The notes beneath the pieces were generated by a model. The model worked only from the letters and a program-made list of their open reading frames with translations, made no database searches and was not told the origin of the DNA. Shown in pieces: positions 2,923 through 55,246 of a stretch of DNA of 64,000 bases. Numbering within the stretch: position 1 is the first letter of the stretch; each line of letters opens with the position of its first letter. Source of the DNA: a virus; the IMG/VR virus record IMGVR_UViG_3300032242_001752, positions 1 to 64,000 of that record; one strand, 5' to 3'. The translations under genes were made by a program, and so were the position numbers.

Positions 2923-3213
2923 CTAGATAGATGCTAAGTCAGCGACTACCCTAGCGTTTACCCTTGCCCAAAACTCAGCGCAGGTAATTTGGAATGGTTT
3001 GCCAAGTTCCAAAGCCGAGACTGTGGTGGCGTATAGTGTTTCCCAGCGTGCCATTTCTAGTTCGTATTCTTGAACCATAAACGCATCGTTGCTCGTAGCC
3101 TTGACTGTGGCTAGTGCTTCACTAGCCTTGTCGTAAGCATCACGAATTACACTAACAAGGTCTAACCCTGTCCTGTAATCCGTCTCTAAAACAATTTCCA
3201 TTGCTCTCTCCAA
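2923..3213 (-). CDS. Hypothetical protein, 96 aa, first gene of leftward unit C
   Basis: Predicted all-helical soluble protein rich in A, E and V, with heptad-like spacing over residues 20-75 suggesting a coiled coil or helical bundle. No family recognised. The ATG at 3213 has a GGAGAG ribosome site 5 bp upstream. The conserved TTGATAACGA-N6-GGGTATG block lies about 80-105 bp upstream. It leads a four-gene leftward unit. Confidence 0.65.
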   Translation of the reverse strand: MERAMEIVLETDYRTGLDLVSVIRDAYDKASEALATVKATSNDAFMVQEYELEMARWETLYATTVSALELGKPFQITCAEFWARVNARVVADLASI

Positions 3214-3289
3214 TTACCAAGCAACTCTCGCCTAAGCCCTTTTGTCTTAGTGTCTTGTTTGCCTGATAAAGCCAAACTATCAGTTTCAC

Positions 3290-3384
3290 CACATACCCCA
3301 TTCGTCGTTATCAATTCGTTATAATGCCGTTATCATTTTGTTATCTAAGGGGGGTAGGGTTAATCGTTATCAAATCGTTATAAT
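3290..3384 (-). promoter_or_regulatory. Promoter/operator region of leftward unit C with GTTAT boxes 7-9
   Basis: Boxes 7 (3306-3325), 8 (3328-3345, second half ends GTTATC) and 9 (3365-3384) are in the same orientation. TTGATAACGA-N6-GGGGTATG at 3290-3316 (leftward) matches the two other unit promoters at identical spacing. Box 9 lies close to the rightward promoter at 3510, so the same regulator could act on both directions. Confidence 0.55.
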
Positions 3385-54111: not shown

Positions 54112-54184
54112 GCCTCAATAGCTCAGTTGGTAGAGCGCAATACTTGTAATATTGATGTCGCGGGTTCGATTCCTGCTTGAGGCT
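54112..54184 (+). tRNA. tRNA-Thr (anticodon TGT)
   Basis: Full cloverleaf: acceptor GCCTCAA/TTGAGGC, D arm GCTC-AGTTGGTA-GAGC, anticodon stem CAATA/TATTG with loop CTTGTAA, and T arm GCGGG-TTCGATT-CCTGC. CCA is not encoded. It would supply ACA-reading tRNA. Confidence 0.95.
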
Positions 54185-54186
54185 CT

Positions 54187-54845: not shown

Positions 54846-54859
54846 TTTTGATGTAAACT
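54832..54859 (+). promoter_or_regulatory. Promoter for the tmRNA-like RNA
   Basis: TTGACA (54832-54837), 16-bp spacer, TAAACT (54854-54859). It overlaps the end of the heat-shock gene and would start a transcript near 54866, 40 nt before the tmRNA-like RNA. Confidence 0.55.
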
Positions 54860-54866
54860 AAAAGTC

Positions 54867-54902
54867 CTCCCGGCAAGCTTTCGACGTGTTTGCCGGGGGG
54901 AG
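54867..54902 (+). terminator. GC hairpin before the tmRNA-like RNA
   Basis: CCCGGCAA pairs with TTGCCGGG over 8 bp (54869-54876, 54890-54897), extendable by CT/AG. No T-run follows. It may end the heat-shock transcript, or be the 5' leader removed when the RNA at 54906 is processed. Confidence 0.4.
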
Positions 54903-54905
54903 CTA

Positions 54906-54985
54906 GGGCCTGAAATGGTGTCGATTGCAGAACAAAGCCTCCAGTAGGAATCTGTAAGACCACAGTTCAATTCTGTGCAGGTCCA
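54906..54985 (+). ncRNA. tmRNA-like RNA reduced to the tRNA-like domain, about 80 nt
   Basis: The 5' part, GGGCCTGAAATGGTGTCGA, matches the start of tmRNA (GGGGCTGAA-GG-TCGA type). The 3' part, GGAATCTGTAAGAC then CACAG-TTCAATT-CTGTG then CAGGTCC-A, matches the 3' end of tmRNA (GGAAT...GAC, T arm, CAGCTCC-A). The acceptor stem is 7 bp with a G3-U70 wobble, the alanine identity pair. A 7-bp stem TTGCAGA/TCTGTAA closes a 19-nt loop in place of the 200-300 nt that carry the tag reading frame and pseudoknots. It is either a new kind of TLD-only RNA or a remnant. CCA is not encoded (ACGA). Confidence 0.7.
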
Positions 54986-55150
54986 CGATGCACGCATGTC
55001 CAGCGGCATTGGGGTCACGTACCTCACCTTAGTCGCGAGGCTAGGCGTTTAAGGCTCTTTACTGCTGAGTCCACAAAACCAACCAGCAGAGCGAAAGCTT
55101 GAGACGACTCGCAAGAGTGGGAACGCCCGAAAGGGTCAGTACTAGGTTTT
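54986..55150 (+). ncRNA. Structured RNA of unknown family
   Basis: Between the tmRNA-like RNA and tRNA-Asn lies a non-coding stretch with several strong hairpins: CCTTA/TAAGG around CGC/GCG, CTGCTG/CAGCAG, and three GNRA-loop stems (AGC-GAAA-GCT, ACTC-GCAA-GAGT, GCCC-GAAA-GGGT). The loop of CTGCTG/CAGCAG contains AAAACC, which can pair with GGTTTT at about 55145-55150 to make a pseudoknot. I know no family with this outline. It could belong to the same transcript as the RNA at 54906. Confidence 0.5.
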
Positions 55151-55154
55151 CCAA

Positions 55155-55226
55155 TGACCATTAGCTCAATGGCAGAGCAGAGAGCTGTTAACTCTAAGGT
55201 TCCTGGTTCGAGTCCAGGATGGTCAG
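55155..55226 (+). tRNA. tRNA-Asn (anticodon GTT)
   Basis: Acceptor TGACCAT/ATGGTCA, D arm GCTC-AATGGCA-GAGC, anticodon loop CTGTTAA in stem GAGAG/CTCTA (outermost pair mismatched), T arm CCTGG-TTCGAGT-CCAGG, discriminator G. CCA not encoded. Confidence 0.92.
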
Positions 55227-55228
55227 CT

Positions 55229-55240
55229 TTATGGTAAAAT
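55229..55240 (+). promoter_or_regulatory. Extended -10 promoter, leaderless start
   Basis: TTATGGTAAAAT with -10 TAAAAT at 55235-55240. The usual distance to +1 puts the transcript start at the A of the ATG at 55247, so the mRNA of the RHH gene would be leaderless, as is common in actinobacteria. Confidence 0.5.
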
Positions 55241-55246
55241 ATAGGT

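Follow-up and report, generated by a model that had tools for sequence, protein, structure and literature searches.

The stretch of DNA analysed here (the window) comprises positions 1 to 64,000 of IMGVR_UViG_3300032242_001752, an 88.6-kb virus record of the IMG/VR database. At 54906-54985 on its plus strand lies an 80-nt element that sequence, minimum-energy fold and a covariance model identify as the tRNA-like domain (TLD) of a transfer-messenger RNA (tmRNA) without the mRNA-like domain. We call it a tagless tmRNA. The element belongs to a broad, virus-borne family, its structure and its alanine identity are under selection, and it probably jams or redirects the ribosome-rescue pathway of the host. 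Its boundaries had been given by a first-pass annotation made from the letters alone, and both the sequence and the fold agree with them. The only open reading frame (ORF) that overlaps the element runs on the minus strand. The parts are as follows.

54906..54985, plus strand: tagless tmRNA (TLD only), 80 nt; covariance model R1, 55.6 bits, E 3.3e-13, and covariation
54906..54912, plus strand: 5′ strand of the acceptor stem, GGGCCUG, with G3 paired to U70; sequence, fold and subclade covariation
54913..54924, plus strand: tmRNA-type D loop, AAAUGGUGUCGA, without a D stem; alignment of the sibling copy from phage LuckySocke to the Rfam tmRNA model
54925..54931, plus strand: 5′ strand of a P2-like stem of 7 bp, UUGCAGA; 7 of 7 pairs covary in 18 and in 100 sequences
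54938..54948, plus strand: inner hairpin of 3 bp, CCU-CCAGU-AGG; covariation and column table
54951..54957, plus strand: 3′ strand of the P2-like stem, UCUGUAA; covariation
54958..54960, plus strand: GAC linker from P2 to the T arm; GA in all of 101 copies, an invariance owed in part to search design
54961..54977, plus strand: T arm, CACAG-UUCAAUU-CUGUG, a perfect 5-bp stem with the loop UUCAAUU; T-stem covariation
54978..54985, plus strand: 3′ strand of the acceptor stem, CAGGUCC, and discriminator A73; sequence, covariation and the acceptor-blind count

The acceptor stem has 7 bp (54906-54912/54978-54984). CCA is not encoded in the window copy, which reads TCCA and continues with CGA; it is encoded in 14 of the 82 copies examined. 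The P2 strands are separated by 19 nt, of which 6 are paired, and this leaves no space for a resume codon or a tag frame, as the first-pass annotation had argued. Its description of a 7-bp stem with a 19-nt loop is borne out for the stem and not for the open loop, since a conserved, covarying 3-bp hairpin sits inside.

The fold energy of the element (z -1.8) is weak evidence alone, and the case for it therefore rests on homology with covariation. Model R1 was built from 18 other viral copies, the window being excluded. It finds the window copy at 55.6 bits; the next best match in the window reaches 14.1 bits, and the true tRNA-Asn nearby only 14 bits. In the 18 copies, 96.4% of the cells of the 22 pairs are paired, 18 pairs show double changes, and covariation is 0.719, compared with 0.156 ± 0.022 in shuffled alignments (0 of 500 as high) and at most 0.153 for slid structures. 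With 100 distinct copies, in an alignment that was fitted to the model and is thus biased towards the structure, the figures are 96.3% paired, 681 double-change cells (193 ± 12 shuffled) and covariation 0.779 (0.171 shuffled), two of the five measures, with this many rows, not being clearly above the shuffles. In this set 99.8% of T-stem cells are paired, with double changes in four of the five pairs. The subclade of the window copy (11 members, gap-free) has 100% of its pair cells paired, double changes in 14 of 22 pairs and covariation of 0.553 against 0.146 ± 0.025 shuffled (0/500). The match by R1 together with covariation is the decisive test of the element, and it is confirmed.

The inner hairpin covaries in all three sets: three of three pairs in the 18 and in the 100 copies, and two of three in the subclade. 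It reads CCG-CAAGU-CGG in the relative L002, and the family consensus is CCG-CAYG-CGG, placed after an A-rich internal loop. In L002 and L012, two relatives retrieved by way of the adjacent Hsp20 gene, the element occupies the corresponding site and differs by compensatory changes (GCAGA/UCUGU to GCACA/UGUGU; CCU..AGG to CCG..CGG). Compensating changes in the stems of homologues had been proposed as a check in the first pass, with a full tmRNA at the same site or random decay of the arms as signs against the idea. The outcome is the opposite of these signs: the arms and P2 are maintained by compensatory changes.

The family extends well beyond these relatives. Divergent copies are present in L121, L122, L124, L136, L139 and L141, loci fetched through DNA polymerase. 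A structural pattern gave at least 120 matches in IMG/VR; about 65-70 of the 80 loci inspected from it are members, as are most of the remaining fetched loci, and false positives (e.g., L167, L170, L193, L206, L214, L219, and L232) were discarded. A second pattern, with the acceptor unconstrained, also gave at least 120 matches in IMG/VR and one in 396 actinobacterial genomes, at the already known Cellulosimicrobium locus L293. The family therefore resides mainly in viruses. Among the carriers are isolated phages of Streptomyces and Stenotrophomonas, and relatives exist in complete isolated-phage genomes; unannotated copies were found in LuckySocke, pSt2308, BRock, Shaeky, Alone3, Riptide, GiJojo and Stenotrophomonas Jojan60, and some of the carrier phages grow on Streptomyces lividans. 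One contig holds two different copies (L264 and L326). ARAGORN makes no tRNA or tmRNA call for 81 of the 82 copies. L180 is ambiguous: an ARAGORN tmRNA call at 2976-3318 shares its 3′ end, and it may therefore be a full tmRNA. L015 (30 bits) and the matches in Pseudomonas SM1, FLC9, Tunturi_5 and NoPa (22-35 bits) were not accepted as members.

Such a distribution bears on whether the element is a mere remnant or passenger, be it a tmRNA gene copy in decay or a spacer between arrayed tRNAs. Presence is patchy, close relatives differing in whether they have the RNA, and some copies do lie within tRNA arrays, as this explanation would have it. We nevertheless consider it very improbable, given the compensatory changes in every stem, even between near relatives, the near absence from cellular genomes (1/396) of an element common in viruses, and the small share of copies with a tRNA nearby. 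Another tRNA lies within 600 bp in only 22 of 82 copies (7% at random positions); 58 of 60 such neighbouring tRNAs are on the same strand as the tagless tmRNA, and the Shaeky copy occupies a gap in a packed tRNA array.

The identity of the two ends with those of tmRNA, including the G3-U70 alanine wobble, had been proposed in the first pass and is confirmed by covariance models. The LuckySocke copy scores 48.6 bits against the Rfam tmRNA model RF00023 (cut-off 47), with model ends 1 and 374 both aligned and about 300 positions absent. The cut-off is exceeded in 33 of the 43 carriers, in 31 of these by short matches of 70-92 nt only. The covariance-model search suggested at the outset thus succeeds for the window copy with R1 and fails with Rfam, which at E up to 10 gave no tmRNA match to it. 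No full tmRNA was found elsewhere in the window's virus record. An ordinary tRNA or tRNA-Ala is ruled out by ARAGORN, Rfam and the R1 scores: ARAGORN makes no call on the window element, finding only the flanking tRNA-Thr and tRNA-Asn, and the Rfam tRNA model aligns to it only by dropping 33 positions (20.2 bits, cut-off 29). Also ruled out is a circularly permuted or two-piece tmRNA, since both acceptor strands are contained in the same 80 nt, the 5′ strand coming first.

Compared with standard tmRNA (ssrA, RF00023), a group that includes full phage tmRNAs such as those from mycobacteriophages and from Streptomyces phage Forrest, the element has the same acceptor with G3-U70 and A73, the D loop GG-UUCGA, GGAC and the T arm, and its relatives align with the Rfam model end to end. 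In contrast, some 300 internal positions are gone, with no resume codon, tag frame, stop or pseudoknots, and P2 is a 7-bp stem closed by the conserved inner hairpin. With tRNA-Ala it has in common the acceptor identity and the T arm, but it has neither a D stem nor an anticodon arm. Mitochondrial tmRNAs (jakobids, oomycetes; RF02544) and the plastid tmRNA of Mallomonadaceae, which has no coding sequence, are likewise devoid of a tag reading frame. Mitochondrial tmRNAs are usually circularly permuted and have a nucleus-encoded SmpB, whereas the viral tagless RNAs are single and unpermuted.

In cryo-EM of E. coli tmRNA, SmpB contacts U17, C18, G19 and A334, the last belonging to the pocket of SmpB Trp122 (PMC8363625). 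The D loop AAAUGGUGUCGA is equivalent to the E. coli D loop up to A20, which contacts SmpB (from the LuckySocke-Rfam alignment and PMC8363625), and the A of the GAC linker corresponds to A334. All four contact bases and the neighbours G13, G14 and A20 are kept, partly by search design; G19 and A20 are also kept in divergent copies found by BLAST without the pattern constraint (Riptide, BRock, and Alone3). The RNA retains all the parts that loading with alanine and binding of SmpB would require. SmpB genes were found in none of the 43 carriers, many of whose records are fragments, so that absence is not full proof. In carriers without SmpB, the host protein must serve.

Because U70 was fixed in the first pattern, the alanine determinants were recounted on the acceptor-blind search. 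Among 62 distinct new copies, G3-U70 is present in 61 (the exception having a small deletion in the arm) and A73 in all 62, while acceptor pairs 4-6 vary freely, each with four or more standard pair types. With the determinants near-invariant and the neighbouring pairs variable, alanine charging appears to be selected.

This constancy matters for two alternatives. The RNA could be a sponge only, sequestering SmpB off the ribosome with charging irrelevant. A precedent is the TLD-only tmRNA of Mycobacterium phage DS6A (listed on the tmRNA Website as tmID 11587), which PMC4131195 and PMC11915505 describe with reference to Mao et al. (2009). According to these two sources, a TLD-only molecule like that of DS6A is a strong inhibitor of E. 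coli tmRNA, and PMC4131195 adds that inhibition occurs with or without charging, perhaps through SmpB titration. A sponge, however, needs neither G3-U70 nor A73, which stay near-invariant amid changes elsewhere in the acceptor stem, and we regard it as rather improbable. Alternatively, the RNA could be an alanine donor, or a ligand of alanyl-tRNA synthetase (AlaRS) or EF-Tu, in a reaction outside trans-translation. The maintained alanine identity would suit such a role, as would the 55 of 82 copies in loci without any tRNA, which indicate an independent function for the RNA. The D loop and GGAC linker, which are specific to tmRNA and contact SmpB, are kept too, though, and no single partner gene was found near the RNA throughout the lineages; this alternative strikes us as remote.

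The surroundings of the element in the window include three further features.

54112..54185, plus strand: tRNA-Thr(tgt), same RNA-rich locus; ARAGORN and Rfam
54867..54899, plus strand: 10-bp hairpin directly upstream of the tagless tmRNA; sequence and relatives
55155..55227, plus strand: tRNA-Asn(gtt), same RNA-rich locus; ARAGORN and Rfam

Different long hairpins occupy the site directly upstream in L002 and L012, and the one in the window is possibly a processing or insulation element. The site between the hsp20 and Arc-like repressor genes (window 54846 to 55246; L002-L014) is an exchangeable small-RNA hot spot, holding in different relatives the tagless tmRNA, tRNA-Asn, tRNA-Trp, other RNAs, or a small ORF. 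Directly 3′ of the element is a third conserved RNA stretch (54986-55045, plus strand), common to L002, with the compensatory change GGGG/CCUC to GGAG/CUUC. It is followed by a second structured RNA of about 100 nt (55053-55153, plus strand; AGGCUCUUUACUGC...GGUUUUCCA) that has three GNRA-type hairpins and may form a pseudoknot; compensatory changes replace CUGCUG/CAGCAG of the window and L012 by CUGCAG/CUGCAG in L004. The latter RNA has no Rfam match up to E 10, and its core pattern occurs in only two other IMG/VR contigs. Another tRNA-like RNA (GGACUG...CAGUCCA, with a UGCAAAU T-like loop) lies just before tRNA-Trp in L002 (about 1210-1290) and L003 (about 800-880); it has no ARAGORN call, and one of its hairpins changes from C-G to U-A between the two. 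In one lineage of about ten loci, the tagless tmRNA is placed between the genes of the head maturation protease and the major capsid protein, where strong expression is expected.

The most likely reading, to which we give about an even chance, is that the RNA acts as an alanylated decoy, entering stalled ribosomes with host SmpB and blocking tagging, i.e., as a competitive antagonist of trans-translation. The transcript would be trimmed like a tRNA and CCA added, host AlaRS would alanylate it, and the alanylated RNA would bind host SmpB and EF-Tu. The complex would enter ribosomes stalled on broken mRNA, take the nascent chain and offer no resume codon, so that host tmRNA would be outcompeted for tagging and the untagged substrate would fall to another pathway. 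We infer this chain, from charging and SmpB/EF-Tu binding through ribosome entry to failed resumption and suppressed tagging; the structure, the ancestry, the association with viruses and the selection for alanine identity are shown. A structure cited in PMC8363625 indicates that a tmRNA in truncated form, together with SmpB and EF-Tu, is able to bind a ribosome. A decoy or inhibitor had been suggested in the first pass, and the idea is supported by outside experimental precedent, the DS6A RNA, by analogy with which the window copy may act. Like the DS6A molecule, for which action on SmpB and tmRNA has been proposed, it is phage-encoded, amounts to hardly more than the TLD and has no tag; unlike it, it comes from another virus group, and the likeness is to the published description of the DS6A RNA.

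Under titration alone, the charging identity should drift, yet it stays; this favours a decoy that is alanylated and works on the ribosome. The main rival is tagless rescue. In this rival, the alanylated RNA and SmpB would reset stalled ribosomes, one alanine being added and the broken mRNA displaced; a release factor such as ArfB would then free the untagged chain, and the virus would regain ribosomes with the host not blocked. Selected alanine charging suits productive peptidyl transfer, and the mitochondrial tmRNAs, also tagless, have been retained together with SmpB and are believed to assist in handling incomplete mRNAs (PMC11915505). Two carriers, moreover, keep the tagless form alongside a full tmRNA: G008 and G014 have full-length RF00023 matches besides. 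The full-length tmRNA of G008 has a canonical tag ending in ALAA; that of G014 (L304 289-680) is a full-length phage tmRNA for which ARAGORN's candidate tag is atypical, SPEYRIRLLTNTKW. This co-occurrence weighs against the decoy, since a general antagonist would hamper the virus's own tmRNA too, and it is poorly explained by simple SmpB titration. In another carrier, G024, a gene about 4.6 kb from the tagless tmRNA (L383 275-643) specifies a protein of 122 aa with an RF-1 domain and a GGQ motif, in keeping with tagless rescue. On the other side, the RNA can supply no stop codon, a similar molecule is inhibitory in the outside data (PMC4131195), and an RF-1-type peptidyl hydrolase was found in only 1 of 43 carriers and Pth in none, with the same caveat of fragmentary records. 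We therefore hold tagless rescue to be unlikely, if a serious contender. A codon-free variant, an 'instant stop' by UAA or UGA in the A-rich inner loop, was rejected: no stop is present there in LuckySocke or the window. More generally, and only tentatively, the members of a large, old, virus-specific alanylated family may do more than soak up SmpB: they may act directly on stalled ribosomes, either resetting them or freeing the chain untagged and so sparing viral proteins, and the conserved inner hairpin may be the part that touches the ribosome or a protein.

The window element is not the unique molecule that its first description implied. The phage TLD-only kind was already known from DS6A, the one phage named in the literature consulted, and the 2025 tmRNA database lists nine 'standard, no CDS' (no coding sequence) sequences in all (PMC11915505). 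The literature searched appears not to describe how broad the family is, its inner hairpin, the selection that acts on charging, or carriers that also have a full tmRNA; the placement beside capsid genes in one lineage is also new. Standard annotation overlooks nearly all copies of the family.

Trans-translation is nearly universal in bacteria. The kept alanine identity and the co-occurrence with full tmRNA raise pointed questions about the existing idea of SmpB titration. If our interpretation is true, a common viral mimic of tmRNA that has no tag would turn ribosome rescue into a widespread arena of conflict or cooperation between viruses and their hosts.
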